Shown: piece after piece, positions 2,886 to 63,392 of the stretch | Numbering within the stretch: the first letter of the stretch is position 1 | How the letters are laid out: each line of letters begins with the position of its first letter | Source of the DNA: a virus | Length of the DNA stretch: 64,000 bases | IMG/VR virus record: IMGVR_UViG_3300042468_000945 | Span: 54,099 to 118,098 of that record | Direction: 5' to 3' (one strand) | Program-made: the position numbers and the translations under genes | Notes under the pieces: generated by a model | Database searches by the model: none | Told to the model about the DNA's origin: nothing | The model's input: the letters and a program-made list of their open reading frames with translations, nothing else

Positions 2886-3998
2886 TTATTGTACTAACAA
2901 TGTTCTTAGAATAATTTGTTCTCCAACACCCACATTAACTTCCCTATCAGGAGAAAGTTGAATACCATCAAGACTTGCTGTAATTGATGCATCAATTACA
3001 GCACTATCAGAAGAAGCTGCAATAGTTCTAAGTTGAGATATAAATAAGGAACTACTGCCTCCACCTGTTTCTATTGGTAGGGCATTAATTAATGAAGATA
3101 TTTGAGTTCTAACAGATGCTCTAATATTTTCTTGGTTAGTTGCAGTAGGTTTAAACCTTAAAGAAATTTTAACATCAAGGTTTCTTGCTGTTGGGACTCT
3201 AACTACTGCGTTAATTCCTACATTAACTGCATCATCTAGTACAGCCTGGCATTTTTCAACAATATCGTTTGCCTGGTTCTGGTGGTAAGGTGTTACAATA
3301 ATGTCAAAAGTACCACCACCACGATTTAGATTTAAAAGAACAGCATCCTTAACACCAACAACACCCCTTACAAGTGCAATAACATTATCAGTATTTAATA
3401 CGTTTCTTCTTCTAAACCCTTGTAGAATTCTTTCACGATAACTATCGTCAGACTCTTGTAAACTACCATTTGTAATTGGTAGAATATTACTTACTCGTAC
3501 ATTGGGGTTAGGCACATTATGGGAGTCAATTTCTCCTGCACCTACATTATATGCTGGACCTGTTTGTGCCGCTGATACGTGAACATCAACTGATTGACCA
3601 GCACCAACAGAAGCACCTTCAACAGTGAAGAAAGCATTATTTATATTACTAGAAACCCAAACCCGAGTACTAAAAGGTATTGAAACAGAAGAACCACTTA
3701 AGTTAGTAAATCTGATTGACTTTGTTTGACCTAGTGTAGTGGCTTTACTTTCTTCTTTCCTAGCCACCCCTACAATTAAACCTATTTGATCTAGGGATGG
3801 ACCTGTCGCAGTTGTTAAGTTAGATTGATTATTTAAATCTTCTAGGTATTCCCAAATACCATCTAACTCCTCAGCGACTAACCTTAAAAGAGTTCCAATT
3901 ACTGTGCCATTTAAGCTGGCAGTGATACTTGTTTCAGAGACAATTCTGCTGTATAAACTATTTAAAATTTCCTCTTTAGACGGTCTTGCTATGTTCAT
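2886..3998 (-). CDS. Baseplate J-like protein (T4 gp6 / Mu gp47 family)
   Basis: A 370-residue baseplate wedge protein. The N-terminus shows the family pattern: a helical start, then GTVIGTLLRLVAEELDGIWEYL, then a GPSLDQIGLIVGVAR segment, then a beta domain that includes GQSVDVHVSAAQTGPAYNVG. The central ESDDSYRERILQGFRRR helix is typical of J/gp47 proteins. In contractile-tail machines two copies of this protein form each wedge, linking the hub to the periphery, and the ring opens on contraction. Length fits the family (350-400). Upstream are gp25-like and hub genes, consistent with a baseplate block. Confidence 0.9.
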   Translation of the reverse strand: MNIARPSKEEILNSLYSRIVSETSITASLNGTVIGTLLRLVAEELDGIWEYLEDLNNQSNLTTATGPSLDQIGLIVGVARKEESKATTLGQTKSIRFTNLSGSSVSIPFSTRVWVSSNINNAFFTVEGASVGAGQSVDVHVSAAQTGPAYNVGAGEIDSHNVPNPNVRVSNILPITNGSLQESDDSYRERILQGFRRRNVLNTDNVIALVRGVVGVKDAVLLNLNRGGGTFDIIVTPYHQNQANDIVEKCQAVLDDAVNVGINAVVRVPTARNLDVKISLRFKPTATNQENIRASVRTQISSLINALPIETGGGSSSLFISQLRTIAASSDSAVIDASITASLDGIQLSPDREVNVGVGEQIILRTLLVQ

Positions 3999-4000
3999 AA

Positions 4001-4339
4001 TTAAGTTCCAAAAATAATGCTGTCTCTAAACTTAAATAGAGGATTAATTTTTAGGTTAATAATTGCTTTAGTTAATTCTTCGTTATAATCAATTTCATAA
4101 CTAATTAAACCAAAGTAAGCATACTTCTTGTCTTTAGATGTTTCAGATTCCAAAATTAAAGTTTCATTTAATTTTAAATGCGTTAAGTCTACTTTATCAA
4201 TGTCTAATGTTAAAATTAATGTGTTTTTCTTTGTTAGTTCCACATTATTAACACTAAAACAAAGTTTCCTATCAAGATAACCTTCCTCACCAGGGTTTCC
4301 TTTCTTTAACAAATATAAATAATACTTTAAATTATCCAT
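4001..4339 (-). CDS. Small hypothetical baseplate-cluster protein
   Basis: A 112-residue, Lys/Leu-rich protein starting inside the end of the glycosyltransferase gene (8 bp overlap) and ending 2 bp before the baseplate J-like gene. The alternation of hydrophobic and polar residues (such as NTLILTLDIDKVDLTHLKL) suggests a beta-rich fold. There is no membrane segment or recognised motif. Translational coupling with its neighbours suggests a tail-related role; function unknown. Confidence 0.6.
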   Translation of the reverse strand: MDNLKYYLYLLKKGNPGEEGYLDRKLCFSVNNVELTKKNTLILTLDIDKVDLTHLKLNETLILESETSKDKKYAYFGLISYEIDYNEELTKAIINLKINPLFKFRDSIIFGT

Positions 4340-5624
4340 GACTTTCTCTACAACACTTCTTATATTTTAATCCAGAACCACAAGGGCAAAGTGCATTTCT
4401 ATCTACTTGACCCCAAACTCTACCACTTATTTTTTTATTAGGTCCTAGTTTTCCTTTTTGTGCTCTATCAATAATATCTTTCCAAGCATAAGGCCACTTA
4501 TGAAAATTATTTTCTAGTGAGTATTCATTAATTGCAAGTTCTCGATTTTCCTTTTGCATCTTCTCTCTTCTTACAGTATTGGTTACAAGTTCTTCTAAAG
4601 CAGAAAACCATGTACTATAGTTACCCTCACCACTACCCACAATTAAAACACTTTCAGGGTGCTTTCTTTGGAGCTTAGAATATGGAGCAACATTACTTGC
4701 AATCATGGCTTGACCAGCTGCAAAACCTTCAAGAAGTTTTAAAGGGGATTTTGAAATATTAAATTCACAAGGGTGAACAGGAGCTAAACCAATATCTGCA
4801 CCAAACAATCCTGTTGGGTGATCCATAAAGTGTCTTGGTTCCACCAATTCATATCTACCTTCTGGAATGATATTATCTTTATTAAGGTGATTAAAGATGT
4901 CTGGCGCACCATAGTAAGCAAAAATAGTTTCTGGATATTTCTGTAAGATTCTAGAAATAGGAACCATTATCTGCTCTAAATCAGTAAGGTGCGAACTACC
5001 TCCACTCCATTGGATCACAACTTTATCTTTCCATCTATCTGGTTTTTTAATTTTTATAGGTTCAAAGAATGGTTCTCCGTCTTGCCAAGAAACATTAACC
5101 TTCCAATCTCTAAAACTAAAATCAATATAGTTAGGCAGGATTGCGTAGTTTGTGTTAAACTCAGAATAAGCACCAGCTAACTCCTCAGTGGTTACAGTCA
5201 AACCGTGACAGTTTTCCATAAACTTCTCTAGCCACTTTAAAGTATCTGAACCAGGATAATATGCAGTATAGGCTGGACTTGTTTTTAAAACTTTATGCAG
5301 GTCGTCATCAACCTCAAAAACAATTATCTTTCCATCCCATTGAAGTGTTCTAAACATTTCATAGGCTTCTGGGCTATTTTGTCTTGGTGCAATAATAACA
5401 TCTGCATGTATGAATTGATTCAAATTTTGAGATGTTCCATATACAACATCTGCTCCATGCATTTTTAACATGTGGAGCGGATTAATTACCCTATAATGCC
5501 CACAAGCACCATTATCAGCAACTAAACCAACAACTTTAAGTCCAGCATACTTGTCGCTTACTTTGTAGTCTGGAAGTTTCCTAGATGTTGTGGATACTTT
5601 CTCAATTAAACTGTTTGTTTCCAT
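4332..5624 (-). CDS. GT-B glycosyltransferase with C-terminal SEC-C zinc motif
   Basis: A 430-residue protein. The N-terminal half shows a Rossmann-type GT-B pattern: a GLVADNGACGHYRVINPL start, HADVIIAPRQ, then FEVDDDLHKV. The second half has KVVIQWSGGSSHL, the LAPVHPCEF region and KLLEGFAAGQAMIAS, the usual donor-nucleotide-sugar part. The final 20 residues form a separate SEC-C zinc finger, CPCGSGLKYKKCC, known from SecA C-termini where it binds zinc and partners. The enzyme presumably moves a sugar onto a protein or wall target; the substrate is unknown. It sits between gp25-like and J-like baseplate genes, so a virion-linked target is plausible. The fusion itself is the odd feature. Confidence 0.85.
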   Translation of the reverse strand: METNSLIEKVSTTSRKLPDYKVSDKYAGLKVVGLVADNGACGHYRVINPLHMLKMHGADVVYGTSQNLNQFIHADVIIAPRQNSPEAYEMFRTLQWDGKIIVFEVDDDLHKVLKTSPAYTAYYPGSDTLKWLEKFMENCHGLTVTTEELAGAYSEFNTNYAILPNYIDFSFRDWKVNVSWQDGEPFFEPIKIKKPDRWKDKVVIQWSGGSSHLTDLEQIMVPISRILQKYPETIFAYYGAPDIFNHLNKDNIIPEGRYELVEPRHFMDHPTGLFGADIGLAPVHPCEFNISKSPLKLLEGFAAGQAMIASNVAPYSKLQRKHPESVLIVGSGEGNYSTWFSALEELVTNTVRREKMQKENRELAINEYSLENNFHKWPYAWKDIIDRAQKGKLGPNKKISGRVWGQVDRNALCPCGSGLKYKKCCRESHG

Positions 5625-5644
5625 AAACTACAGATAGTGTAACG

Positions 5645-6055
5645 TTATATAGTATAATTTACCCTATCAAAAACTAAACCTTTCTGTAAGTCTAATTGAC
5701 TGCTAACTTGAATTACTTTATCTGGATCATCTTTTGATGGTAATTCAATAAGTATAAATACCTCATCTTTATCTAAAGGGATACACGTAACTTCAACACT
5801 AGATAATGATAAGTCAAACAAGAGAGCACTTCTTACCCTGTTTTCAATTCTTAGCCTTGTTGCTGTAGAGTTCTCTTCACCTATAAAATCTTCTAAGCTT
5901 ACACCAATTTCAGGTTCAAGTAAGTTATCACCTGCTGTTGTTTTTAGTAAAAATACAATTTGTTGTGCTAACTGCTCATCACCTGAAACAACAGCTAAGT
6001 CTCCGTTTGCTCCAATAATAAGATCTCCGTTATCTGTTATTTTTAAATCTGTCAT
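5645..6055 (-). CDS. gp25-like baseplate wedge protein
   Basis: A 136-residue protein of the gp25/XkdS type. It opens with a short beta repeat (DNGDLIIGANGDLAVVSGDE), continues with QLAQQIVFLLKTTAGDNLLEPEIG (the family helix and loop) and RLRIENRVRSALLFD, and ends in a beta sheet. Such proteins join sheath-like handshake strands to the baseplate wedge and help start sheath assembly. It overlaps the upstream gene by 4 bp. Length and order are typical; the assignment rests on pattern, not a search. Confidence 0.8.
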   Translation of the reverse strand: MTDLKITDNGDLIIGANGDLAVVSGDEQLAQQIVFLLKTTAGDNLLEPEIGVSLEDFIGEENSTATRLRIENRVRSALLFDLSLSSVEVTCIPLDKDEVFILIELPSKDDPDKVIQVSSQLDLQKGLVFDRVNYTI

Positions 6056-6594
6056 TTTAAGTTCTCCATGTAATAAGTTAAGTGATCCATTTCTGGTGAG
6101 TCTACTAAATCATAATCAACAAATAAAGTATCATTATTGCAGTAATTAGATAGGGGCTTTTTATTTATAATTTCCCCTGTTTCTGGAATAACTCTTGTTG
6201 TATCATCCATAACATATATTTTACTAATATCAACATCTTTTTTAATTAGTAAAACATTATAGTCTTCATTTATTTTGGGATTAAAAACTTTATTACCTAC
6301 AGGTAATGAAAACCAATCAGTATTTGGAAATGAAATAAACTTAGAGGTTACAATAGTTGAATTAGAAAGAAGGTATAATCCACCACTCATGTCCCCAAGC
6401 ATTCTTACCTGTCCAGCATAGATATCAAACTGACCTTGATCTCTAAATATAGCACCTACAGGAAGATCAGGGTGTCTTAATCCAATATCACTATCTGAAT
6501 AAGTTAATTGATTTGATCGTATAGTATCATTCGTAACTTCTTCACTATACCTATCAATAGCTATCCTTGTTTGATCAAACATACTTAAACTCAT
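6052..6594 (-). CDS. Hypothetical baseplate-cluster protein
   Basis: A 180-residue acidic protein coupled by 4-bp overlaps to both neighbours. It contains HPDLPVGAIFRDQGQFDIYAG, a stretch that looks like a beta-hairpin, and Asp/Tyr-rich C-terminal strands. No catalytic motif, membrane segment or signal peptide is visible. The position between a Pro/Gly-rich protein and the gp25-like gene suggests a baseplate component. Confidence 0.6.
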   Translation of the reverse strand: MSLSMFDQTRIAIDRYSEEVTNDTIRSNQLTYSDSDIGLRHPDLPVGAIFRDQGQFDIYAGQVRMLGDMSGGLYLLSNSTIVTSKFISFPNTDWFSLPVGNKVFNPKINEDYNVLLIKKDVDISKIYVMDDTTRVIPETGEIINKKPLSNYCNNDTLFVDYDLVDSPEMDHLTYYMENLK

Positions 6595-49781: not shown

Positions 49782-50304
49782 TTAATGCCTCTTCTAATTT
49801 ACTAACTACACTTGCTTTATTTACTGGGTCATCCCAATTAAAAATAACTAGTTTAGGTTTTGTTGCAATGCCAAGTGTTCCACAAAGGGGCAGGCATTTC
49901 TTAATTGTTTCTATATCCAAACTTGCCCTTTCCCAGTGTTCATTACTAATACCCAGATTCAAAGCAGTTTGTTTAGAAGCTGTTTCTGGGCCACCTACTA
50001 CCACATAGAGTGGAATTTCGGGGCAAACAAAGTCAAATTTAGGTATATTATTATTACTTATCTCAAAATAATTAAATTTTCCACCCTCAATTACATTTAA
50101 ATTCTCAACAGTGTTTTCAATTTGATTGAATACTGCAACCTTATTTTGTTTAGTATTTAAAACAAGTAATGGTAAGTCATTGTAAATACAATCACCTACA
50201 ACATCTATTCTTCTTTGTTTTTCTGTGAGGACATTTTTACTTTCACAGAAATAAACTAACTTTATTAAAAATTGTTTTAATTTAATTACAAGACTACTTA
50301 TCAT
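49771..50304 (-). CDS. Hypothetical protein between portal and terminase
   Basis: A 177-residue protein overlapping both neighbours. A hydrophobic/basic N-terminal stretch (SLVIKLKQFLIKLVYFC) could be a membrane-associated helix. The middle has PLYVVVGGPETASKQTALNLG, which resembles a short nucleotide-binding or Rossmann-like loop, and the end is helical. No family is recognised. Confidence 0.55.
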   Translation of the reverse strand: MISSLVIKLKQFLIKLVYFCESKNVLTEKQRRIDVVGDCIYNDLPLLVLNTKQNKVAVFNQIENTVENLNVIEGGKFNYFEISNNNIPKFDFVCPEIPLYVVVGGPETASKQTALNLGISNEHWERASLDIETIKKCLPLCGTLGIATKPKLVIFNWDDPVNKASVVSKLEEALNEA

Positions 50305-51542
50305 ACTTTACCTTTTAGCCATTTTTTCATAATACTAGCTGCTTGTTGTGCTTTACCAGTAGCATTAATGGGTGGAGTTTGTGGGTAATTTTTAGCTTTG
50401 GTTGTTTCCTCTAAAAATTCTTTAGCAGATATACCCTCTTTTTTAATTTGTTTTTCGTAGTTTTTTATTGATTTGTTTAGTCCAAGGAATATTTTATTTA
50501 GTGTTGAATCAACTAAATTTCCGTATAGCTTTTGTCTTACCTCATAAGCTTGGAAAAATTGTTGGTCTTGAACTAGAAATTCACTTTCAACATTCTTTAA
50601 AGCATCAAACAAAGATTTTTCTATTGTTTGTCTGTACTTTAAAAGTATAGGGTCTGCTGTAAACGTAGAATTATCTCTCTCCACATCCTCAGTCAAGTTT
50701 AATAGAATATCTTTAGTTCTGTATAGGTAATCAAACCCCCAACTACGAGATAACTTACCATAATTATTACCTGAAACTGTCCCTAGAGAGGTGTCTAAAG
50801 CAGTATCTAGCATTTTAAATTCATCATACAATCTGTCAACTTCTGTAACAAAAGAGAAGTTAGAGAACGATAAATACTTATTAATCTCGTTAGGGTATGT
50901 ACTTGCTAGGTTAAGAATTCCTTTAACAGCATCTTCACTAATAATATCTTCAACTAAACCTTTAATTTTAGATATGTTTTCTCTTATGTTATTAGCTAGT
51001 TGTTGATCCTTTAAGATTACACCAATTAACAATCTTTTTACTGTATCAGAGTTTAAATTATCTCTTTCTAAAAGGGGCATATAAACATTTTCGTAAGCAT
51101 TTTGAATTACAGCTAACTGTCCCCTGCTTCTATAATAGTCTTTAACTAATATAATTTCTGGGTTAGTTTGTCTTCTATAAATGTCCCTTTCAATTATTGT
51201 TTGAATGTTTTCTGGGGGAACTTGTGTTGTTTTATAGTTAGAATCATAAGGGGTGGCAAATTGTACTTTTGCAGCAGCAAAAAATGCGCTAAATACTTCG
51301 TCGTCAGAGTATTTAGCTTCTATTCTATTAATTTCTTCCTGTACTAGACTTGTAGTTGTCTTTACAATATCATATGTATCTTTAAGATAAGAATATGGAG
51401 AAGTTAACTCTACTTTAGTCTGGTTATTGTTCTCAGAGTTGGTTATTTTAATGGAAGTGGTGTCTTCTAGGGTTGTTAAAAGTTGGTCAACCTTCTTTTC
51501 TATTTCTCTTTTATCAATAAAACCAGAAAAACTATTGTTCAT
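50301..51542 (-). CDS. Hypothetical helical protein between terminase and portal
   Basis: A 413-residue largely helical protein (KREIEKKVDQLLTTLED; later repeated Lys/Glu/Leu helices). It shares its stop/start overlap with the terminase gene and is coupled to the next gene by 4 bp. It has no catalytic motif. The position before the portal suggests a packaging or portal-accessory protein; this is not proven. Confidence 0.55.
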   Translation of the reverse strand: MNNSFSGFIDKREIEKKVDQLLTTLEDTTSIKITNSENNNQTKVELTSPYSYLKDTYDIVKTTTSLVQEEINRIEAKYSDDEVFSAFFAAAKVQFATPYDSNYKTTQVPPENIQTIIERDIYRRQTNPEIILVKDYYRSRGQLAVIQNAYENVYMPLLERDNLNSDTVKRLLIGVILKDQQLANNIRENISKIKGLVEDIISEDAVKGILNLASTYPNEINKYLSFSNFSFVTEVDRLYDEFKMLDTALDTSLGTVSGNNYGKLSRSWGFDYLYRTKDILLNLTEDVERDNSTFTADPILLKYRQTIEKSLFDALKNVESEFLVQDQQFFQAYEVRQKLYGNLVDSTLNKIFLGLNKSIKNYEKQIKKEGISAKEFLEETTKAKNYPQTPPINATGKAQQAASIMKKWLKGKV

Positions 51543-54500
51543 TAAAAATTATCCCTCTCATAACCATAAATTGAATCATCCAAAGATGATCTACTATAGA
51601 GAAAATCTACTGCTTCAAACTCATCTAAATCCATATTTAACATATTATTTTTAATTTGTCTTACAGCATCTTCTTCTGATGGTACAGCTATAACCCCAAA
51701 ATTATCTAAACTTTCGTTAGTCATAGTGTAAGGGTTCTCAAATAATGTAAATATCCCAAACATAGCAAACAAGAAACAGTCAATAATGTGCTCGTTCTTG
51801 CTTGTAAACTTAACAGTATTAGCTGTGGTTTTAATTACTTTATAATCTAAGAATTGTTTTTGAATGTCTTCTCTATTCTTGGGAATCATAAGAAGACTTT
51901 GTTGTGTTTTAGCTCGGAGGAGTTCTACAAGATATGGTTTTACTTTTATCTTCCTATCTTCTCCAGTAAGTTGATCAGGAACTACGACATTGGATTGGAA
52001 AGCTAACCTTGTAAGTTTTTGAGCTAAACCAAGCTCTGGTCGCAGTAAAGCAATACTATTTAAGTCTTCCCATTGCTTCTCAGAGGCCCCTTGGTCAATA
52101 ATCACAAGTGTAGGATTGAACACCTCAAAAAGTTCAACTATTCTGTTAACTGCTAAGGTATAAGTCCACTCACCCTTTGATATCTCTTCGTGCCATATAA
52201 ATTTAAGATTTTTTAGGTAGGGATCATATTGAGAAATAAGGATATTGGTTCCGCACTGTACTTTATCCCAGTCAACCGTTAAGAATATTGGATTATGTGG
52301 GTGAACCTGTTCCATTGACGGTTCCCAATCATATTTGAAAACATTATCAATATCTTCTTTTTTAAAGACTGCACTATCTTCTTCTGCAACTTCTAATAGG
52401 TACTCAGTTGTCCAGGTTGCTTCGCTATTGACAGCAATCCTTTCTTCTTCAATCATATCAAAATCCCATTCTTCATTTTCAGTAATGGGAATTTTAATTA
52501 TTGTTTCATTTTTTGATTTTTTTAAGTTCTTTTCAATTTTCTCGTAGTATTCACCTTCTGCTTTATTAAGAGTACCAGCAACATACGTCCTAATAGATTT
52601 ACGTCTTGTTAAGTCACCACGCATGATTGGCTTAATAACCCTCCAGTCTTCATCGGAGAGTCCTTGACCTTCATCAACAAACACCACGTCAGCAGTAATA
52701 CCACGAAGTTTGTCAGGAGCAGTACCGTTTACACCAAGAATATGTCCATGAATAGTAGAACCAGTAATAAATGTTCTCTTCATTGGGGCACTTGAGTTAC
52801 CTACTGGGTGTACAAACTCTTTTAGTAATGGATTAGCACCAATCCAATCATCAATTGCTTTAAAGAATTCAAGAATTTGAGTGCTTGATGGTGCAAACAC
52901 ATGAATAGCTTTACCCTCTCTTGTTACAGCATGCCATAAAGCAAGTACTGAAAAACAGAAACTATTATGAACAACTACATTGTTTGCTGAGAAGGAGAAG
53001 TTACAATTATCTTTGAGAATGATGTCATATACTTCCCGAATCCCTGCATTTGTTATATTAACAACAAGTTCCCACCTTCTAGGATTTTTAGCTTCGTGTA
53101 TAGCAACGTCTAGGTCTAAAATATCTCTTAAAAACAGATCAGCATCTAAACTATCATCTATTCTTATAAGACCATCCTTTGTCACCCTACAGAAAATATT
53201 AAATCTAAGTAATAGGTGTTGTAAATCAAAAGCAAATGGCTTATTAAATATGGATAAGGTAATATTTTTTTGTTTGTGGTCTAAACGACCATAATTAACA
53301 AATAAAATTTTAAAATAATTCTTTAATGTTAGATAATCAAAATTAAATACAACATCAGGAATGTGGTTCTTGGATATTGTAAAGTTAGCAATATCTTCAA
53401 GTTCTTCGTCAGTTACAGTATTAACTCCATGTTCATATGAACTAAAAGCAAGTATTTGATCACCTATTTTAATTTCACTTGCAGGAATCCAACCACTTTT
53501 CTTTTCATAAACAAGGTGGTCTAAAGAGGGGGTAAGTGACACGCCTGACTCTAATCTAAATTTTACGCAATTTTTATAAATGGGTATTGATAAACTTGCA
53601 CCTGAGTTTTCTGGTTTATTTGAATTTAAGTTGTAGGTAACAGTATTAAAATTATCTTTTACATCTTTAAGTCTTATTGGTCTTAATGTATCTGCATCAA
53701 CAATGAATGAATTCTTATCTAGGCAATTGTGCGTAGGAGTATAGTTATCAGTTATGTATAAATGATCTTCGTCACCAACTGTTATACATTGCATCTCCAC
53801 TCTGGAATCTAATTTTTCAACCTTAACTATAGTTCGTCTTAGATACCTTTCAGGAAGCCCAACACAATTTTTTCTTTCTAAATTGAAGATATTTAGTTCT
53901 GCTGGTACTGTAATGTGTGCTCTGTATCTAGTACCTGTAACCTTTCTTACACCATCCAAAGTGTAACACGCATCAGACTCCTTCACAGACACCTTACAAC
54001 CCAAAGATCGTGCAAGATCAGCAACATCATGGGTGAGTTGTTTAGATACAGTACAAAACTCTGCTGAACCATTCTTATTTCTTTCAGCATGACCATCTGT
54101 GTCCATTAAACCACGTAACAACCAAAGACGTTGTTCAACACTACTATACTTGTAAATATCAGGTATAAACTTAGTATGAGATTTTTTATTTGTCAGCCCT
54201 AAAGATTCTAGGTCTGGGAGGTATTCTTTTCCAAAATCTAAGAAATATCTTTTTGCCTTACTCTTAGTCTCAGAGACTCTTTTTAATTCAAAGCCAGTTC
54301 TTTTTTGAATGGTAGTAATGATTTCTTCATCAGCACTTGTAATCTCACCTGTTGATAGTGAACCATCACCCAATAATACACCCATTAAGTATGGGTCAAT
54401 AGGAAGTGTATTGGCACTATGCTCAACAGGTTTAACAGGGTTTAATTTATATCTGAACTCAGCTTTGTCACTGTACTTATAAATGTATGTGTTGAGAATC

Positions 54501-54988
54501 TCTTCTGTAGTTTTAACTACATTGCCACGTTGAAGTTTTCTTGTTAATCTAGATCCTTTACTTCCAAGTGCAGTATAAATCTCCCATTCGTGGTCTTTAC
54601 CCGAATCCACATAAGTACCATCTGATAAGTGGATTCTGTAAACATCTTGTATTCCATGAGGTATAATATTAGTTACAGGTGCTGTTTTACCATTCGGGGT
54701 AGACACTGTTGTACCTATTTTGACATCCCCCATTCTTATAGGACCTTTTGGAGTATACACTAAGGAGTCCAAAGGTTGCATTTTCCCGGCACGTCGATGG
54801 ACACATACCCAAGTATCTCGGGCAGTAGAGCTCATTATGATTCTTTGGGGGTACTGAGCCTTGAATGGCTTGTATGGGGGTCCTGGGTTTGGACTGAATA
54901 GAAACGTCTCAGCAAACGTTAAAGGACTGCTTTTTGCTTTCTGAAAAGCCTCCACCATTTCTGGTGTTAATTCATTCTGATCGAACAT
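51542..54988 (-). CDS. terL: Terminase large subunit interrupted by two abutting inteins
   Basis: A 1148-residue precursor. Exteins are residues 1-69 and 676-1148, giving a 542-residue terminase after splicing, the normal size. The junction recreates the Walker A motif HRRAGK|SFCFSV. Walker B is VVFVDEGQGL (D772, E773). The C-terminal nuclease has the RNase H-like acids in FLTVDWD (about 900), LVIIDQGAS (about 963) and HIIDCF (about 1070). It pumps DNA through the portal and cuts concatemers. Two inteins occupy residues 70-421 and 422-675 and must both leave for ATPase activity. It follows the small-subunit gene after two small hydrophobic-protein genes. Confidence 0.93.
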   Translation of the reverse strand: MFDQNELTPEMVEAFQKAKSSPLTFAETFLFSPNPGPPYKPFKAQYPQRIIMSSTARDTWVCVHRRAGKMQPLDSLVYTPKGPIRMGDVKIGTTVSTPNGKTAPVTNIIPHGIQDVYRIHLSDGTYVDSGKDHEWEIYTALGSKGSRLTRKLQRGNVVKTTEEILNTYIYKYSDKAEFRYKLNPVKPVEHSANTLPIDPYLMGVLLGDGSLSTGEITSADEEIITTIQKRTGFELKRVSETKSKAKRYFLDFGKEYLPDLESLGLTNKKSHTKFIPDIYKYSSVEQRLWLLRGLMDTDGHAERNKNGSAEFCTVSKQLTHDVADLARSLGCKVSVKESDACYTLDGVRKVTGTRYRAHITVPAELNIFNLERKNCVGLPERYLRRTIVKVEKLDSRVEMQCITVGDEDHLYITDNYTPTHNCLDKNSFIVDADTLRPIRLKDVKDNFNTVTYNLNSNKPENSGASLSIPIYKNCVKFRLESGVSLTPSLDHLVYEKKSGWIPASEIKIGDQILAFSSYEHGVNTVTDEELEDIANFTISKNHIPDVVFNFDYLTLKNYFKILFVNYGRLDHKQKNITLSIFNKPFAFDLQHLLLRFNIFCRVTKDGLIRIDDSLDADLFLRDILDLDVAIHEAKNPRRWELVVNITNAGIREVYDIILKDNCNFSFSANNVVVHNSFCFSVLALWHAVTREGKAIHVFAPSSTQILEFFKAIDDWIGANPLLKEFVHPVGNSSAPMKRTFITGSTIHGHILGVNGTAPDKLRGITADVVFVDEGQGLSDEDWRVIKPIMRGDLTRRKSIRTYVAGTLNKAEGEYYEKIEKNLKKSKNETIIKIPITENEEWDFDMIEEERIAVNSEATWTTEYLLEVAEEDSAVFKKEDIDNVFKYDWEPSMEQVHPHNPIFLTVDWDKVQCGTNILISQYDPYLKNLKFIWHEEISKGEWTYTLAVNRIVELFEVFNPTLVIIDQGASEKQWEDLNSIALLRPELGLAQKLTRLAFQSNVVVPDQLTGEDRKIKVKPYLVELLRAKTQQSLLMIPKNREDIQKQFLDYKVIKTTANTVKFTSKNEHIIDCFLFAMFGIFTLFENPYTMTNESLDNFGVIAVPSEEDAVRQIKNNMLNMDLDEFEAVDFLYSRSSLDDSIYGYERDNF
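52964..53725 (-). mobile_element. Class 1 intein, endonuclease degenerate (intein 2 in terL)
   Basis: A 254-residue intein from C1 (CLDKNSFIVDADT) through block B (SLTPSLDHLVYE), block F (VYDIILKDNCNFSFSANN) and terminal VVHN, followed by Ser of the terminase. The central 100 residues carry no intact dodecapeptide motif and look like a decayed endonuclease. Its first Cys is also the nucleophile position for the preceding intein. Confidence 0.85.
53726..54781 (-). mobile_element. Class 3 intein with LAGLIDADG homing endonuclease (intein 1 in terL)
   Basis: A 352-residue intein. It begins with Met (MQPLDSLVYTPKG), so it lacks the normal N-terminal Cys/Ser. It has the class 3 WCT set: W66 two residues after the block B His (GKDHEW), C332 in block F (MQCITV), and T350 just before the terminal HN. 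Two dodecapeptide motifs (LMGVLLGDG at about 132-140 and LRGLMDTDG at about 222-230) indicate a LAGLIDADG endonuclease. The +1 residue is the Cys that starts the next intein. Confidence 0.88.
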
Positions 54989-54998
54989 TGTCTATCTT

Positions 54999-55472
54999 TT
55001 ACCTTGATAAGTATCTTGATGCCATAATAGTTGCTTCGCTTCCTACTAGACCGTAATTTTTATTCATTTCTTGTTGGGTATTTTGAAAACTAGCATATGC
55101 TAAGTCCATACCCTGTGGAGAAGCAGAAAAGGGAACAGAAGCCATCATTCTAGCCTGTCCAGACCCTCTAATAAGCCCTCCAACATGTTTTGTGTATTCT
55201 CCAGCACCTAAAGCCATTGAGAAGGCTGTACCGCCAATAAATTGACCCCACCAACCAAAACCAGAAAACAGGTAACCACCAGCAATAGCTGTAGCAGTAT
55301 CTCGTACCTTGGATTCTTGTGGTGCGGTTATGAAAGTTAAACCACCTACAAGAGCAGTATTAGTAAGAAGGTTATGGTATGGGTTACCAGCAAGTTTACT
55401 GTTTCTCTTTAGTGCTCCAAAAGTTTTCCCAGCAAATTTTGCTCCGATAGGTGAAAATAATCTACCCAGCAT
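54999..55472 (-). CDS. Small Gly/Ala-rich hydrophobic protein between terminase subunits
   Basis: A 157-residue protein with an ALVGGLTFITAPQES segment and two Gly-rich hydrophobic stretches (TAIAGGYLFSGFGWWGQFIGG, split by Trp/Gly turns, and AFSMALGAG). It could insert in membranes or act as a minor virion protein. It overlaps the next upstream gene at the TAATG-like junction. It resembles in style the Gly-rich C-terminus of the protein encoded at 46873-47649. Function unknown. Confidence 0.55.
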   Translation of the reverse strand: MLGRLFSPIGAKFAGKTFGALKRNSKLAGNPYHNLLTNTALVGGLTFITAPQESKVRDTATAIAGGYLFSGFGWWGQFIGGTAFSMALGAGEYTKHVGGLIRGSGQARMMASVPFSASPQGMDLAYASFQNTQQEMNKNYGLVGSEATIMASRYLSR

Positions 55473-56143
55473 TATAACCTACTATTCCTCCCCATTATCG
55501 CTCGTCCGTAAGACGCATTGGCACCCATGTCGTTAATATTTCTAATATTTGTACCATCATAGTACACGGTAGGGTCGGGTGTTTGATAAGGTAAACCTTG
55601 AATTAAACCAACAGCTGCGGAACCAACACCAAGAGCAGCAACACCCTTTTTAACCATGCTTTTATTAGGTGAAAATCTTCTTTCATCTGCTACTGTTCTT
55701 GTAAATGCGTGGCTACCACCTTGTACTTGTTGAACTTTAATACCTTTAAGACTTGCAGCAGCTTTAGCATCAACAGCATTGTCTATCAGATCTTGTTGTG
55801 TTATTGCTGTATCAGTATAGTCCACAGTCTGCCCAAACAATTTACCAACTTTACCACCTCTAGGGTTATGAGATTTCATACCCATTTTTTTGTAAAAATC
55901 AGGTGTAACTAGTTTTTCAATCTCACCCCCACTTACAAGCCTATCAGCGGTGTCGTTTGCGTAGGGGAATAGTTTTTTAACTGCTTGAGAAGCATTCTTT
56001 GCTTTAGCTCGAAAAATTCCAAAAAAGTTTGTATCTAAGGCATTTGTAGCACCTACAAATGCACCTTCTGCACCTTTAATAATATTAGATACTATTCTAG
56101 GGGCTTTTGCAAGGTTTCCAGCTAATGCACTAAATAAACTCAT
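55472..56143 (-). CDS. Hypothetical protein between terminase subunits
   Basis: A 223-residue basic protein. The start is set at the ATG 56141-56143 (MSLFSALAG), which has AAGG eight bases upstream; an in-frame GTG three codons earlier is less likely. It has an amphipathic N-terminus, a central helical part, and a hydrophobic stretch (KKGVAALGVGSAAVGLIQG) near residue 175. Overlap with its upstream neighbour indicates translational coupling. No family recognised; a virion or ejected membrane-active role is possible. Confidence 0.55.
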   Translation of the reverse strand: MSLFSALAGNLAKAPRIVSNIIKGAEGAFVGATNALDTNFFGIFRAKAKNASQAVKKLFPYANDTADRLVSGGEIEKLVTPDFYKKMGMKSHNPRGGKVGKLFGQTVDYTDTAITQQDLIDNAVDAKAAASLKGIKVQQVQGGSHAFTRTVADERRFSPNKSMVKKGVAALGVGSAAVGLIQGLPYQTPDPTVYYDGTNIRNINDMGANASYGRAIMGRNSRL

Positions 56144-56912
56144 TATTATCACCTTCTTTTGGTGGTTCTAGGGATTGTGGTTCTTCTCCAAACAACTGTG
56201 AAGTAAATAGTTTTTTGAGTTGTTCTTTATCCCCACCAAACTGTGCCGCCATAGTTAACCTATCCTTTCTAGAAGCAATTAAACTTTTCTTAGTAGAATC
56301 AATCTGCTTATCAATAGCATTAGCTACTTTTAATAGGGGGTGCTCTTTCATTTCACCAAAAGCTTTTTTAGTTTTATGGTCAATAGCGTTAACAGCTTCA
56401 ATAGTCATACCCTCTACAGCAATGTCCCAATCAATCCTTCTCCTATATATATAGAGTCTGACAAGGTTAGCAACGTCTAGAATATCAACAGCTTGACCAG
56501 GTTCAATATTAAGGTCTTTAACTAATGTTGTAAAGTGTTGGATTCCAAGATACTTTTCTTCTCTGCATCTTGTCCCTTCTAAGATATGGTAATTTGAAGG
56601 GTCCATTGCTTTTAAGGTAGGACACACAGAAGCATAGTGACACTTCTTTGTATTACAAATCATAGGCATGTCACTAATAACAGGAAGTTTTTTAGGGATT
56701 TTTACCTTATTTGATGGGTCCCATTTAGTATTGAACAACATAAAAGTTGCAAGATTCCACAAAGAATCATCAAATTCATCTTCAGTTATTGGAGCTACAA
56801 TACTAAACTTAGTAGCCTCACTCTTTATGCTGTCTTTTGAAGGTAAGTGAAACTCGCCTTCATGTTGTACTATATTATTATCTTCCATATTTTTTAGGAT
56901 TTTTATACCCAT
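56130..56912 (-). CDS. Putative terminase small subunit-like protein with Cys cluster
   Basis: A 260-residue protein. It is placed upstream of the terminase large subunit, the normal slot for the small subunit. A Cys-rich module (CNTKKCHYASVCPTLKAM, then RCREEK; four Cys) could bind zinc or an iron-sulphur cluster. Basic helices with LASRKDRL- and RRIDWDIA-type segments follow, then an acidic C-terminus. Two starts are possible (56912 or 56888) and neither has a strong ribosome-binding site. Role by order; no helix-turn-helix match is claimed. Confidence 0.6.
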   Translation of the reverse strand: MGIKILKNMEDNNIVQHEGEFHLPSKDSIKSEATKFSIVAPITEDEFDDSLWNLATFMLFNTKWDPSNKVKIPKKLPVISDMPMICNTKKCHYASVCPTLKAMDPSNYHILEGTRCREEKYLGIQHFTTLVKDLNIEPGQAVDILDVANLVRLYIYRRRIDWDIAVEGMTIEAVNAIDHKTKKAFGEMKEHPLLKVANAIDKQIDSTKKSLIASRKDRLTMAAQFGGDKEQLKKLFTSQLFGEEPQSLEPPKEGDNNEFI

Positions 56913-57412: not shown

Positions 57413-60400
57413 ATGAGTATATTTGACGAAGGTTTAAAGAATAAACAGGAAGATAATGGTTATGAGTTAGGTGATTATAACTATAACAAAGGTGGGTTAC
57501 GATCTCTTGAACTGCCAGCAATGGGTGGTCTAACTCAACCAACTACTATTATTTTCAGAAACGGAAATGACGGCAAACCTCCAGAAGCTATAGCTGAACT
57601 TAAAAGATTACTTGACCTTCAAAATTCAAGGAAAAGTGCAAGTGATGAGGAAAGAAAGTTTTTAGCTAAACAAATAGCAAACCACTTAACCTCTCCTAGA
57701 ACACAGAGTTACTTTGAAAAGACTGCTTTCTTAAACATGGAAGCAGCCGCAAATATTGATATTGGAAGAGGTTTATCTTCCTTTGTTGAAAAAACGTATG
57801 CAAAACAAGGGTATGAAATAGAGATTATTAAAGCAAAACTTGTTGGAAGCACTACTGGTATTCCCCTACACGAATCAACCCTTGAAGCACATAAAAAGTA
57901 TCTTGCTGGACAAGGTAAAAACCCATTTGGAAAGTTTGGAGAGTATAATGTTGATACTAGCCAAACAGCGTATTACCACCTAGAAACAACAAAATCTGGA
58001 CATAACTTACTGCATATGAATGATATTCTTGCAGGATCAATGGTTATGGACTTTGACGGAGACATGGTTACATCTATGGTAGCCAGAAAACGAGACCCTG
58101 TAACTGGTAAAATAACTTCGGAATTTATGATTCCGTATAAAGAACCTCTTACCCAAAAAACCCCCAGATTTAGAAATATTGATTATGAAAGTGATATAAA
58201 GTTTAATAAAGGCAAACCTTTTGGAACGTTTGCTGGATTAAACTACTCTGATTTAGGTGTTCAAACAAACAAAGGAGAAATAAAAGCAGCGTTTTCTGGA
58301 GAAATGAGAAACAGAAAATATTCTGTTTTAGGTGATTTTTTACGTGCCTATGAAAAACCAGAAGCTAGAGAAGGGTTTTCACGAATCAGAGACATTGATT
58401 CTCTACGAGAAACATTAGCAGAAAAATCCTTTAAAGCCAATACTGTTGGGCTTGATACAAACCTGTACCAGGCACAAGCAAATATTGAAAACATTAGGGC
58501 TTTACATTACGTAAGAAGAGCAAATCCAAGTTTATACAAGCAAATGCTTCTTGAACAACAAGAACAGATTGCTGAATATCTTAGAACTTCAAGAACAGGA
58601 GATCAAACTATTCTAGGAACAAAAATAATTGGTAAAAAACAAAAATCAGAATTATATGGAGATAATTTTGAAGGTTTCCTAAACCGCTTAACAACTATTA
58701 ACTTAGATGACGCTGATAATTTAACCCCAGAAACAAACCAATTACTGCATGATCAATTAGTTAGTAGTACTCTTACTAGAGGTGTTTCAGATAGGTTCTT
58801 GGGTGAGTACCACCAAACACTAAGAACTAATGATCCAGCAAATCCTTTTATGAGTAATGGTCAACTAGATAATATTGACTGGATAGGTAAAGGACCATTA
58901 GCTAATCCTAACTATATATTTGAGATTGAAGGTGGTATGAAGACTACCAGAACTACAAATAAAGTTCAAGAAGTACAGGATGGAGTTAAGGATACTTATA
59001 GAAGATATGTAGATGGTAATCCATTTATCAATAAACTAAAAAACCTCCATAAATTAAAACCACAAGAACATGATGATCTCATATCCGAATTACTTGGACA
59101 AGAAGATGGTGAGTTTGTTGATAAATTTGTAGACGCTATGTTTTTAAATGATGTCCCTTATTCTGAAAGGGAGAAAACTATTGCCCAACTCATGGCAAAT
59201 AAGAAGGCAAAACCAGTTGGTGCGTTCTTTAAATATGAAGACGGACAGTATAAAAAAACTACATTAGCTAGATTACAAAAGGAGCATATTGTTGAAACTC
59301 AGGAGCTTTTTGGGTTTGCTGGTATTAGAAAAAACAGGGGTGTTGACTATACAGCTTCACCGCTTGCAATTCTAATCAGGGATATTAATGGTAACTTAGT
59401 AGGACCTTCAAAGGATGATATTATTGGTGTATCAGTTATGGGCAATGTTGCAGCTATGCAAGGCAGCAAAATGACAATGCTTAACAGAGAACAATACCTT
59501 GCATTAGAACTAGAAAGAAGGCTTCAAGATAGTAGATTTGCTGGTTCTAGAGGGTTTCTAGAAGCTCCAGAGCAAGGTAGTTTTAGTGCTAGTGATATAA
59601 AAAACAAATTAATGTATGATAATGATGGCTTCAGAAAAAAGATTTTTGAAGCGTATCAGGGAGTTCATCAAGCACCAACTCAAGATGATACACCAATTAT
59701 CCAAGACCTTATTAATAGATTAAGTAGCACTAATAAGGAAGAAGTATCAAGAACCCATAAAGAAATTATTAGAAGATATGACCTTACACATAGAAGAGAC
59801 CTAATGACGGCAGTACAAGGACACCTAAGAGACATTGTTGCTGCTGTTGGTGGTCGTAATAATATTGATGCTAGGATTGAAAACTATGGGTGGGGTGAGA
59901 ATGGGATTCAATTAAAAGGTGTAGCAGATGATGGTATTGATTCTCTTACAATAAGTGCTATGTCAAGTACGTTGGGTATTGATACTGAACATCTTGGCAT
60001 GAAATCCGAGCATAAGGCAAACATAATGATGGAAGCCTTTAAAAAGTTTGGTGGTTTTAATAGAAAAAATACTGGTTCAGAAAGCGATAGGTATTTATTA
60101 ATGACTATGGGGGAGAGGGCAGGTGAAATTACCCCAGTAGGTACAAATAAGAACTACTTTATGCCAAGAGACTTAGCTAAAAGAATGTCTGATATTCAAA
60201 GACAAACAATTGGTGGAACCGCATTAGGTAAGGTCAGGGTTGCATTAGCTGAAACTGAAATATCAGAAGAATATTTTAATATGATTAATCCTAGTGCGTC
60301 TTTAGGTCTAAAAAGGGCAGATGAAGGTTTAATCTTAATTTCAAAACAATTTAGTAATAGGGCGGCGGCAAAGATTAAGGCTCAGTTACGAGTTGGTCCA

Positions 60401-61342
60401 ACTATTGGTGCAGATGATTTTGAATCGGCATTAGCTTCATTTGTAGAGTTTGGAGTTGGAGAAGCTAGAGTAAATAGTACGGATAGACGACTAACACCAA
60501 CAGAGCTTAAGGAAATGAGGAGAAAGCTCACAGAAGAATTTAAAAATCTTTATAGATACGATGATAGCAACGGTAAAAGACAGTATGTTACTACTGATGA
60601 AGGTCTTGACAGGGTAATCTCTAAAAACTTTAAACTAGTTTCACTATTGGGTGATAAGGGAGTTGTGAGTGTTGTTGATAGTATTCAAGATGAAGATGGA
60701 AAAGAGATTGACATCTTAATGCACATAAACCAAGCAAGATCAAGGTCAAATGAAATTGCAAGATACCAAGAAGTTATTCAAACTGCTGTTAATGAGGGTA
60801 GGTTATCTGTGGAAGACCTTGGACCAGAATTCCAAGCATCAGCTAAAAATGGATTTATTAATTTTGATGAGATATACGCAAAACATGGTGGTAACCAAGA
60901 AGAATTCCTGGCAAAAATTAAAACAGGTTTTATAGATCCGTTAGAGAGAGCACAACAAGCAGTTGCTTTTAGACATGAGGGTGTAAGCCAACATTTTAAA
61001 ACTAGCATATTTGAAACTGATAACTTTGTTGCTGCTGGTAACTGGGGAGACATATATAGAGACCAGAAAGCGGCAGAACTTATCATTGAATCACAAAGCA
61101 AGAACAAACTTATTGGTAGGATAGCTAATGCCCTTGATAATGAGACAGGTTCAGGGCTTGTAGGATTGGGTGTTCAGCTTGGTATGCATATGGCAGTTTC
61201 GTATGCAAGCCAGAAAATAGCTGTTAATGCCCTAGAAACAGGGGTTGTACAACATATGACAGCAGAAGAGTTACTTATCAATTCAAAGAAGATGCTTGGT
61301 ATAGGAAAAGCTTTACAAGATTCACTGGAAGATTATTTATAA
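57413..61342 (+). CDS. DFDGD-motif protein, putative RNA polymerase-like (1309 aa)
   Basis: The only plus-strand gene. Residues 201-221 (HMNDILAGSMVMDFDGDMV) align with the beta-prime catalytic loop (LHPLVxxxxNADFDGDxM), where three Asp (here D213, D215, D217) hold the active-site magnesium. Residues about 1080-1125 (GDKGVVSVV, EDGKEIDI, then SRSNE) resemble the beta-subunit stretch GNKGVVS, EDGTPVDI and SRMN. The beta-like part therefore lies after the beta-prime-like part, the reverse of known single-chain polymerases. The middle 800 residues are helical and unknown; the end has a hydrophobic helix. It could be a phage RNA polymerase, perhaps virion-packaged. Other double-psi barrel enzymes remain possible. 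Confidence 0.55.
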   Translation: MSIFDEGLKNKQEDNGYELGDYNYNKGGLRSLELPAMGGLTQPTTIIFRNGNDGKPPEAIAELKRLLDLQNSRKSASDEERKFLAKQIANHLTSPRTQSYFEKTAFLNMEAAANIDIGRGLSSFVEKTYAKQGYEIEIIKAKLVGSTTGIPLHESTLEAHKKYLAGQGKNPFGKFGEYNVDTSQTAYYHLETTKSGHNLLHMNDILAGSMVMDFDGDMVTSMVARKRDPVTGKITSEFMIPYKEPLTQKTPRFRNIDYESDIKFNKGKPFGTFAGLNYSDLGVQTNKGEIKAAFSGEMRNRKYSVLGDFLRAYEKPEAREGFSRIRDIDSLRETLAEKSFKANTVGLDTNLYQAQANIENIRALHYVRRANPSLYKQMLLEQQEQIAEYLRTSRTGDQTILGTKIIGKKQKSELYGDNFEGFLNRLTTINLDDADNLTPETNQLLHDQLVSSTLTRGVSDRFLGEYHQTLRTNDPANPFMSNGQLDNIDWIGKGPLANPNYIFEIEGGMKTTRTTNKVQEVQDGVKDTYRRYVDGNPFINKLKNLHKLKPQEHDDLISELLGQEDGEFVDKFVDAMFLNDVPYSEREKTIAQLMANKKAKPVGAFFKYEDGQYKKTTLARLQKEHIVETQELFGFAGIRKNRGVDYTASPLAILIRDINGNLVGPSKDDIIGVSVMGNVAAMQGSKMTMLNREQYLALELERRLQDSRFAGSRGFLEAPEQGSFSASDIKNKLMYDNDGFRKKIFEAYQGVHQAPTQDDTPIIQDLINRLSSTNKEEVSRTHKEIIRRYDLTHRRDLMTAVQGHLRDIVAAVGGRNNIDARIENYGWGENGIQLKGVADDGIDSLTISAMSSTLGIDTEHLGMKSEHKANIMMEAFKKFGGFNRKNTGSESDRYLLMTMGERAGEITPVGTNKNYFMPRDLAKRMSDIQRQTIGGTALGKVRVALAETEISEEYFNMINPSASLGLKRADEGLILISKQFSNRAAAKIKAQLRVGPTIGADDFESALASFVEFGVGEARVNSTDRRLTPTELKEMRRKLTEEFKNLYRYDDSNGKRQYVTTDEGLDRVISKNFKLVSLLGDKGVVSVVDSIQDEDGKEIDILMHINQARSRSNEIARYQEVIQTAVNEGRLSVEDLGPEFQASAKNGFINFDEIYAKHGGNQEEFLAKIKTGFIDPLERAQQAVAFRHEGVSQHFKTSIFETDNFVAAGNWGDIYRDQKAAELIIESQSKNKLIGRIANALDNETGSGLVGLGVQLGMHMAVSYASQKIAVNALETGVVQHMTAEELLINSKKMLGIGKALQDSLEDYL

Positions 61343-62327: not shown

Positions 62328-62403
62328 TGGTACGCGATCTGAGAATTGAACTCAGCTAAACTAGCTTGTAAAGATAGCGTGTTCACCAGAACACTAATCG
62401 CGC
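62328..62403 (-). tRNA. tRNA-Val (anticodon UAC)
   Basis: A 76-base cloverleaf. The acceptor stem GCGCGAT pairs with ATCGCGT, the D-arm has GTGTT/AACAC, the anticodon loop is TTTACAA (UAC), the T-arm is CTGAG/CTCAG with TTCAATT, and A73 and CCA are encoded. The anticodon stem has one mismatch. Confidence 0.88.
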
Positions 62404-62409
62404 ATAAAT

Positions 62410-62483
62410 TGGAGCGAAATAAGAGATTCGAACTCTTACGAACAGTTTGGAAAACTGGGATGCTACCATTACATCAATTTCGC
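62410..62483 (-). tRNA. tRNA-Gly (anticodon UCC)
   Basis: A 74-base cloverleaf. The acceptor GCGAAAT pairs with ATTTCGC, the anticodon loop is TTTCCAA, the T-loop TTCGAAT sits on AAGAG/CTCTT, T73 is as usual for Gly, and CCA is encoded. Confidence 0.88.
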
Positions 62484-62486
62484 ATT

Positions 62487-62564
62487 TGGAGGGTGGTAAA
62501 AGAATCGAACTTTTCTAATATAGATTAACAGTCTATTGCAATAACCCAGATATGCTAACCACCC
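62487..62564 (-). tRNA. tRNA-Asn (anticodon GUU)
   Basis: A 78-base cloverleaf. The acceptor GGGTGGT pairs with ACCACCC, the anticodon arm is ATAGA/TCTAT around CTGTTAA, T-stem AAAAG/CTTTT, and CCA is encoded. T73 differs from the G73 usual for Asn. Confidence 0.85.
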
Positions 62565-62571
62565 TTAAATA

Positions 62572-62659
62572 TGGAGGAAAAGAAGGGATTCGAACCCTTG
62601 AGACCTTTCAGCCCTCTTGCTTTCAAGGCAAGCCTAATTAACCGCTCTAGCACTTTTCC
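62572..62659 (-). tRNA. tRNA-Ser (anticodon UGA)
   Basis: An 88-base class II tRNA with a long variable arm. The acceptor GGAAAAG pairs with CTTTTCC, the anticodon arm CTTGC/GCAAG holds CTTGAAA, and CCA is encoded. T73 replaces the usual G73. Confidence 0.9.
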
Positions 62660-62665
62660 TTAAAA

Positions 62666-62753
62666 TGGAGGAGAGTACAGGATTTGAACCTGTGGGGGCT
62701 TTCACCCCGATTCCTTAGCAGGGAACCGCTATAAACCACTCTGCCAACTCTCC
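62666..62753 (-). tRNA. tRNA-Ser (anticodon GCU)
   Basis: An 88-base class II tRNA. The acceptor GGAGAGT pairs with ACTCTCC, the anticodon loop is CTGCTAA, a long variable arm (GGGGTGAAAGCCCC) is present, and CCA is encoded. T73 again replaces the usual G73. Confidence 0.9.
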
Positions 62754-62756
62754 AAA

Positions 62757-63206
62757 TTACTCTGTTGTCTCTTCTTTATAAAAATCATTATCTAAATGAT
62801 CCTCATACCTATCATAGAGCTCTTTTTCTGTTAAATTTAAATCACTTAAAAAGTCTTTAAAAGTTATCAAACCATCTTTTAAATTTACTTGAAAATTCTC
62901 ATATTCTTTTAGTGTTTCTTCTAGAAATGTTTCTTCGTTTTCTGAAAGGAAGTCTTTTATGTTTCCTTTAAATCCTGCTTTTTGTTTTTTGAAGTATGTG
63001 GATAAAAGTTTTTCATATTCTAAGAATGATAGAGTATTCTCTTTAACAATAAAATTAGCATGTGTAACAGGAATATTCCTTTCAGTTATCGCTTTCTTAT
63101 CTAAACAATAAAGTATCTTTGCTGTTGTTTCAGGGTATAAATCAGGTATCTTCTTAGAAATATAGTCAAATATAGCAATGGTTTTGTTTGTTTTTATTCT
63201 TGTCAT
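62757..63206 (-). CDS. Hypothetical acidic protein within the tRNA cluster
   Basis: A 149-residue Glu/Lys/Leu-rich, probably all-helical protein (MTRIKTNKTIAIFDYISKK start; ending LYDRYEDHLDNDFYKEE). No known motif. It lies 3 bp from tRNA-Ser and 7 bp from tRNA-Tyr, so it is probably part of one transcript with the tRNAs. Function unknown. Confidence 0.6.
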   Translation of the reverse strand: MTRIKTNKTIAIFDYISKKIPDLYPETTAKILYCLDKKAITERNIPVTHANFIVKENTLSFLEYEKLLSTYFKKQKAGFKGNIKDFLSENEETFLEETLKEYENFQVNLKDGLITFKDFLSDLNLTEKELYDRYEDHLDNDFYKEETTE

Positions 63207-63213
63207 ATAAAAA

Positions 63214-63299
63214 TGGTGCCACTATGAGGATTCGAACCCCTTATCCGTAAGGCAAGCGGGCTACAACCGCTCCGACATCCCACTGTCGTCAGTAGTGAC
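63214..63299 (-). tRNA. tRNA-Tyr (anticodon GUA)
   Basis: An 86-base class II tRNA. The acceptor GTCACTA pairs with TAGTGGC, the anticodon arm AGCGG/CCGCT holds TTGTAGC, a long variable arm is present, and A73 with CCA is encoded. Confidence 0.88.
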
Positions 63300-63315
63300 A
63301 AATTGTTTCTTAAAA

Positions 63316-63392
63316 TGGAGCTCGGGGTGGGATTCAAACCCACGATGTCTTACTTACAAGGTAAGTGCATTAGATCGCTATGCTACCCAAGC
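63316..63392 (-). tRNA. tRNA-Thr (anticodon UGU)
   Basis: A 77-base cloverleaf. The acceptor GCTTGGG pairs with CCCGAGC, T8 and A9 are in place, D-stem GCAT/ATGC, anticodon arm CTTAC/GTAAG around CTTGTAA, T-stem GTGGG/CCCAC, T73 and encoded CCA. Confidence 0.9.

Follow-up and report, generated by a model that had tools for sequence, protein, structure and literature searches.

The window analysed here, a stretch of 64,000 nucleotides from a viral genome (IMG/VR record IMGVR_UViG_3300042468_000945, positions 54,099 to 118,098), contains a gene for the terminase large subunit (terL) in which two inteins lie back to back at a single bond of the Walker A motif. One uninterrupted open reading frame (ORF) on the minus strand (51542..54988), with neither internal stops nor frameshifts, encodes the TerL precursor of 1148 residues. 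Its parts are listed below; coordinates refer to the window, residue numbers to the precursor, and a slash within a motif marks an insertion or splice bond.

51545..54988 (stop 51542-51544), minus strand: terL precursor gene, 1148 codons; Terminase_6N 1e-8, PHROG terminase large subunit 1e-27 (joined extein)
54782..54988, minus strand: N-extein, residues 1-69, from the extein alignment; its end, HRRAGK, forms the first part of Walker A
53726..54781, minus strand: intein 1, residues 70-421, a predicted class 3 (Trp-Cys-Thr, WCT) intein with a LAGLIDADG homing endonuclease, based on Pfam, relatives and AlphaFold/Foldseek
52964..53725, minus strand: intein 2, residues 422-675, a predicted class 1 intein with a decayed endonuclease remnant, based on Pfam Intein_splicing
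51545..52963, minus strand: C-extein, residues 676-1148; its first residue, Ser676, is the +1 residue of intein 2 and the Walker A serine

The borders of the elements are Lys69/Met70, Asn421/Cys422 and Asn675/Ser676; no extein residue separates intein 1 from intein 2, and the extein restarts at the Ser676 codon (52961-52963). On the full protein, Pfam reports LAGLIDADG_3 and Hom_end in intein 1, Intein_splicing in intein 2 and Terminase_6N in the flanks. Once both inteins are removed, the mature extein counts 542 residues and reads ...VCVHRRAGK/SFCFSVLALWHA... across the junction; Walker A, Walker B and homology to the nuclease domain are all present in it, as in a terminase large subunit. Calculated masses are 131.2 kDa for the precursor, 91.5 kDa without intein 1, 102.1 kDa without intein 2 and 62.4 kDa for mature TerL; intein 1 accounts for 39.7 kDa, intein 2 for 29.2 kDa, and both together as one piece for 68.9 kDa. 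A preliminary description of the window, made from its letters without database searches, had proposed two inteins, residues 70-421 and 422-675, abutting at one Walker A K/S bond, with a whole motif (HRRAGK/SFCFSV) after their removal. Its coordinates and junctions are exact. The joined extein aligns without a gap at the insertion site to the intein-free TerL of Moorella phage MTATph1 (MGRRTGK/TTTVMVLALYK), with nothing extra between the two elements, and the intein-free loci L094, L095, L096, L097 and L100 (GRR.GKT) agree with the joined Walker A.

Both inteins belong to one site, and strains can be mixed in metagenomes, as would suit a chimera assembled from two single-intein alleles. This error had been named beforehand as one that would undo the proposal. 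Another IMG/VR contig, from sample 3300042288, carries the identical intein junctions and shows no difference from the window over 41,005 bases; it extends 13 kb beyond the end of the window's own record, and the ends of the two contigs differ. It is a separate assembly, perhaps of the same population, and is not a fully independent observation. Against a chimera stand this agreement between two assemblies with different ends and a junction that is exact and in frame at both splice borders. We see in the pair no obvious error of assembly and regard a chimera as very improbable.

Two inteins of different classes

The features of intein 1 that bear on its class and mobility are the following:

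54779..54781, minus strand: Met70, position 1 of intein 1, no nucleophile; position 1 is variable in 62 relatives
54584..54586, minus strand: Trp135 (B:12), the class 3 signature tryptophan; Trp in 47 and Phe in 5 of 52 relatives
54356..54376, minus strand: LAGLIDADG motif 1, residues 205-211 (LLGDGSL), aspartate kept
54089..54109, minus strand: LAGLIDADG motif 2, residues 294-300 (LMDTDGH), aspartate kept; Hom_end 1.7e-9
53786..53788, minus strand: Cys401 (F:4), the predicted initiating nucleophile of class 3; Cys in 52 of 52 relatives, aligned to PDB 6bs8
53726..53734, minus strand: Thr419-His420-Asn421, end of block G in intein 1 (G:5, G:6, G:7), invariant in 52 relatives

Because its first residue is a methionine, the class 1 route would be closed to intein 1. 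It possesses Trp B:12, Cys F:4 and Thr G:5 together with His B:10 (His133, two residues ahead of Trp135), His G:6 and Asn G:7, and over Trp135, Cys401 and Thr419 it aligns to the class 3 intein of Mycobacterium smegmatis DnaB (PDB 6bs8); judged by these residues, intein 1 is a class 3 intein. The preliminary description had correctly read it as an intein with Cys422 at +1, but had missed its class 3 nature, which changes the mechanism. Our viral scan retrieved 79 relatives besides the window's own copy; 62 further distinct full-length inteins were read, and 52 of them were aligned. The alignment shows no exception at five positions, His B:10, Cys F:4, Thr G:5, His G:6 and Asn G:7. Relatives of intein 1 occur in about 780 phage records. 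Among the 62 inteins read, most of which sit in other P-loops, Gly-Lys directly precedes the intein in 50, and the +1 residue is Thr (51), Ser (9) or Cys (2). The AlphaFold model of intein 1 has a predicted local distance difference test (pLDDT) score mostly above 90, and Foldseek matches it in the PDB to PI-SceI (5.8e-17) and to class 3 DnaB inteins (1.3e-4), as for a Hedgehog/intein (HINT) fold; the model of the pair was built from an alignment with class 3 rows only. With the acidic residue kept in both LAGLIDADG motifs, the endonuclease looks intact. A donor of intein 1 was not found: the best identity is about 40%, and the quick tree gave no starred placement. Elsewhere, a single viral ORF (L014:443-2599) contains two class 3 inteins of the intein 1 family at nearby sites, GSGK/T and FLPG/T.

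For intein 2, three features are of particular importance:

53723..53725, minus strand: Cys422, shared as +1 residue by intein 1 and as first residue by intein 2; Asn421-Cys422 is a scissile bond of both
53003..53005, minus strand: Cys662, block F region of intein 2, where the F:13 His is lost (DHNF in three relatives)
52964..52969, minus strand: His674-Asn675, end of block G in intein 2

The Pfam family Intein_splicing covers residues 439-675 of the full protein with a score above the cut-off, and the class 1 set is present with Cys422, His491 (B:10), Asp655 (F:4), His674-Asn675 and Ser676 at +1; on this set of residues, intein 2 is a class 1 intein. That Cys422 doubles as Cys1 of intein 2 and as +1 nucleophile for intein 1 had already been recognized in the preliminary description. 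At B:7, Ser488 stands where Thr is expected, and Ser is also invariant in the inteins of the three closest TerL relatives (L087, L088 and L089). These relatives read DHNF in block F, in contrast to DNCNFSF in the window, where the F:13 His – a common, though not universal, residue – is missing. Of the endonuclease only a remnant is left, and the acidic residues of its remaining motif are replaced (e.g. FVNYGRL).

Order of arrival at the Walker A site

The three closest TerL proteins are approximately 38-43% identical to that of the window, and each possesses a homolog of intein 2 with 32-36% identity. In L087 and L088 this homolog is the sole intein of the gene and occupies the identical K/S bond. 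In L089 (3236-3994) it is located seven residues upstream of the Walker A K/S bond (YIA/C...HN/CSRRSGKS); one intein family is thus found at two neighboring sites within one protein family. Intein 1 was not found in the records of L087, L088 and L089, which are all classed as linear and could be incomplete. The final scans yielded no close TerL relatives beyond these three and none in the genome collection, and no relatives of intein 2 appeared among the phage records. Alleles with one intein or none, for which the preliminary description had suggested a search, are represented by single inteins of the intein 2 type in L087 and L088 and by intein-free TerL genes in L094-L097 and L100.

Among L087, L088 and L089 the inteins are 44-46% identical and the terminases 41-47%; since the two have diverged to about the same extent, intein 2 has long resided with its gene. 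And because intein 2 is present in all four TerL members, intein 1 in that of the window only, intein 1 is the newcomer. The state of the endonucleases is as expected for a newcomer and a resident: intein 1 keeps both LAGLIDADG aspartates, whereas the remnant in intein 2 has lost them. The earlier claim that intein 2 was already in place in the allele that intein 1 invaded is therefore upheld by the distribution in L087-L089; it had been drawn from the arrangement of the two elements, which alone does not imply it. The reverse history, with intein 1 as the resident and intein 2 inserted behind it, could draw on the low guanine-plus-cytosine (GC) content of intein 2 (30.1%, against 36% in intein 1 and 36.3% in the extein). 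However, homologs of intein 2 are present in all three close relatives and intein 1 in none, and intein 2 has no working-looking endonuclease, which makes this history quite improbable.

In the relatives, intein and extein differ in GC content by only 1-2 points. The branch leading to intein 2 of the window accounts for a share of 0.41 in the intein tree (0.49 if only the splicing part is taken), compared with 0.31 of the terminase tree for the corresponding branch, and with four sequences the intein share exceeded the terminase share in 59 of 60 bootstraps. Intein 2 of the window thus diverges faster than its own terminase and faster than its counterparts in the relatives. Together with the lost F:13 His, these changes fit a relaxed or altered constraint since the arrival of intein 1, although, with four sequences compared, they could also stem from a different origin of the intein 2 allele.

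In more distant TerL genes, of the KLEB27-3 type, the same Walker A bond is likewise occupied by class 1 inteins (L004, L091-L093, L098, L099, L101, L102, L107), for which reason we consider the K/S bond an insertion hotspot. Their inteins are longer than intein 2 (394-414 residues in those measured), and intein-free alleles (L094, L100) exist beside them. The terminase of L089 (record IMGVR_UViG_3300022816_000023, gene at 3017-6562) carries in addition a different intein at Walker B (SDV/C...ISN/CFVDEAQ). The linker of this intein corresponds to a complete LAGLIDADG_2 endonuclease ORF (4569-5372; 267 residues, Pfam 6e-36) read out of frame; an endonuclease gene is thus nested in another frame inside the intein, and both frames are open.

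What is more difficult to explain is the entry of intein 1 into an occupied site. With intein 2 in place, only the left half of the usual intein 1 target is kept, i.e. GGGAAA/TGCCTAGAT instead of GGGAAA/AGTTTCTGT. Either the endonuclease of intein 1 reads mostly the left half of its target, or rare repair between two alleles with a single intein each gave rise to the pair. The chemistry sets one constraint on the side of entry: downstream of the resident, a class 3 newcomer would occupy the resident's +1 position with its Met and inactivate the resident, whereas upstream it is supplied with a ready nucleophile by Cys1 of the resident. Because a class 3 intein has no nucleophile at residue 1, only the upstream position would be viable.

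Splicing routes and their order

While the sequences show the anatomy of the pair and the relative age of its members, the chemistry and the order proposed in this section are deduced from active-site residues and from published work on class 3 inteins. We think it probable that the K/S bond first held an old class 1 intein (intein 2), that a class 3 intein (intein 1) was later inserted before its Cys1, and that both splice. According to this model, intein 2 would already have been resident at the Walker A K/S bond of terL when a mobile class 3 intein, of the kind that targets P-loop GK/T or GK/S sites, inserted exactly between Lys69 and the resident Cys1. In the precursor, Cys401 would attack the Lys69-Met70 bond, the N-extein would then be transferred from Cys401 to Cys422, and cyclization of Asn421 would release intein 1 and leave Lys69-Cys422, the ancestral GK/C junction of intein 2. 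Intein 2 would subsequently splice by the class 1 route (Cys422, Ser676, Asn675) and yield the continuous Walker A. Cys422 can probably serve intein 1 in this way, because Cys is accepted at +1 by class 3 inteins: when it replaced Ser+1 in the DnaB inteins of Msm and Mle, splicing persisted, and the Bvi IcmO intein, with a natural Cys+1, splices as well (PMC5222942). C-terminal cleavage is coupled to earlier steps in the class 3 inteins studied (PMC5222942), and such a coupling would guard against premature cutting.

The preliminary description had concluded that splicing should be ordered or coupled. The arrangement does not compel this, as either order is chemically allowed. Excision of intein 1 first gives intein 2 its ancestral GK/C context back; excision of intein 2 first leaves intein 1 with Ser676 at +1, a normal context for class 3. 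Each order would restore the ancestral context of one partner only, and the contexts argue in opposite directions. We lean towards intein 1 leaving first, because intein 2 looks impaired: the F:13 His aids Asn cyclization in many inteins (PMC4031507), and its loss suggests a slower intein 2.

An opposite order, or no fixed order at all, is clearly less likely but deserves serious consideration. Intein 2 would splice with Asn421 as its -1 residue, Asn421 would be joined to Ser676, and intein 1 would then splice with Ser676 at +1. This would provide intein 1 with the Thr or Ser typical of its family at that position (60 of 62 relatives); moreover, intein 2 retains Cys422, His491, Asp655, His674, Asn675 and Ser676, and its quick divergence could represent adaptation to a new N-extein. 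On the other hand, Lys and not Asn precedes intein 2 in its ancestral context (L087, L088), and the missing F:13 His again suggests that this intein is slow.

Several observations weigh against the favored succession of events, in which an upstream class 3 newcomer and a downstream class 1 resident both splice. The family-typical +1 residue of intein 1 is restored by the opposite order only. The F:13 His is dispensable for some inteins (PMC4031507). The AlphaFold model of intein 2 alone, built from three alignment rows, is weak, and the stacked pair is carried by one viral population only.

Two further schemes would link the active sites more closely. In the first, the inteins form a composite machine: the class 3 intein makes the Cys422 thioester, the N-extein is relayed from Cys401 through Cys422 to Ser676, and intein 2 depends on intein 1. 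Such a dependence would explain both the lost block F His and the fast divergence of intein 2, but we consider it unlikely. In the second, which we rate slightly lower still, the acyl group would pass along the same chain without cyclization of Asn421, and a single piece of 606 residues would be freed when Asn675 cyclizes. Cys422 is common to both nucleophile chains, and the +1 Cys thioester yielded by class 3 chemistry is the product of intein 2's own first step (mechanism as in PMC5222942). The bond would, however, have to occupy both active sites in turn without release, and this joint excision has neither structural support nor a precedent that we could find.

Finally, one of the two inteins – most likely intein 2 – could be dead for splicing, and the result would be no terminase or a defective phage. 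The lost F:13 His, the accelerated divergence and the low GC content of intein 2 would be in line with such decay. Tailed phages, however, need TerL, which is essential to them; all 1148 codons are open, both inteins retain every other catalytic residue, and the allele is present in two assemblies. We therefore hold a dead intein to be improbable and prefer the model in which both elements splice.

Known systems and significance

Each of the two elements is of a known kind; it is their arrangement with zero residues in between that appears undescribed, although a claim to be the first is not thereby proven. No description of two such inteins was found in the open literature, most subscription journals lying outside this search. 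Of the 62 class 3 relatives read besides intein 1, not one leads into a second intein. At 24 other viral loci that match DHL[YF], seven residues and THN/C, an ordinary-looking host protein follows, with no second intein; the pattern VTHN/C...DT gave one false match, an intein in an apparent DNA methyltransferase. A zero-spacer pattern for two class 1 inteins had no matches in the viral and genome collections. These zero-spacer patterns are narrow, and uniqueness is not proven by them.

The closest parallels to intein 1 are the class 3 inteins found in P-loop proteins of phages and mycobacteria (DnaB, TerL; PMC5222942, PMC5050341, 6bs8), which share the WCT triad, the missing nucleophile at residue 1 and insertion after GK; those of phages also have the LAGLIDADG domain in common with it. 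In contrast to these known inteins, the +1 residue of intein 1 is the Cys of another intein and not the Thr or Ser of a host protein. Intein 2 resembles the single class 1 inteins at the same TerL bond (L087 and L088, which are homologous to it, and those of the KLEB27-3 type) in the bond used, Cys1, the HN end and Ser or Thr at +1. The single inteins differ in having no abutting second intein, in keeping the block F His, and in the N-extein Lys directly before Cys1. Crowded Walker A sites in a terminase are also known from TerL1-a and TerL1-b of mycobacteriophages, but there the description is of two sites one residue apart and not of a single protein whose inteins abut (PMC5050341). The haloarchaeal MCM and M. 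smegmatis DnaB proteins contain two inteins each, one DnaB intein being class 3 (PMC10643990, PMC6195587), but at separate sites with extein between them and with no residue in common. As in twintrons, e.g. the group II twintron of Trichodesmium (PMC4649490), one element is inserted at another and both must be excised. Twintrons, however, are RNA, with one intron inside the other and sequential splicing, whereas the two inteins are neighbors and neither order is imposed on them.

As for the phage itself, seven tRNA genes for Val, Gly, Asn, Ser, Ser, Tyr and Thr are located on the minus strand at 62328-63392 (six also detected by Rfam). Four proteins near terL (50301-51542, 54999-56152, 57413-61342), one of them with 1309 residues, match no PHROG family, which suggests a phage far from described groups.

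The stacking of a homing element on an occupied site is visible here in the sequence, and it is not predicted by the usual homing model, in which insertion destroys the target. It suggests a rule by which a class 3 newcomer, having no nucleophile at residue 1, can stack upstream but not downstream of a class 1 resident. In the precursor, a single peptide bond serves as C-terminal scissile bond for the first intein and as N-terminal scissile bond for the second; on this natural substrate, competition and hand-over between class 3 and class 1 active sites become measurable. The arrangement is directly testable at the bench, and it may be of use in engineering for ordered, traceless splicing in two steps.

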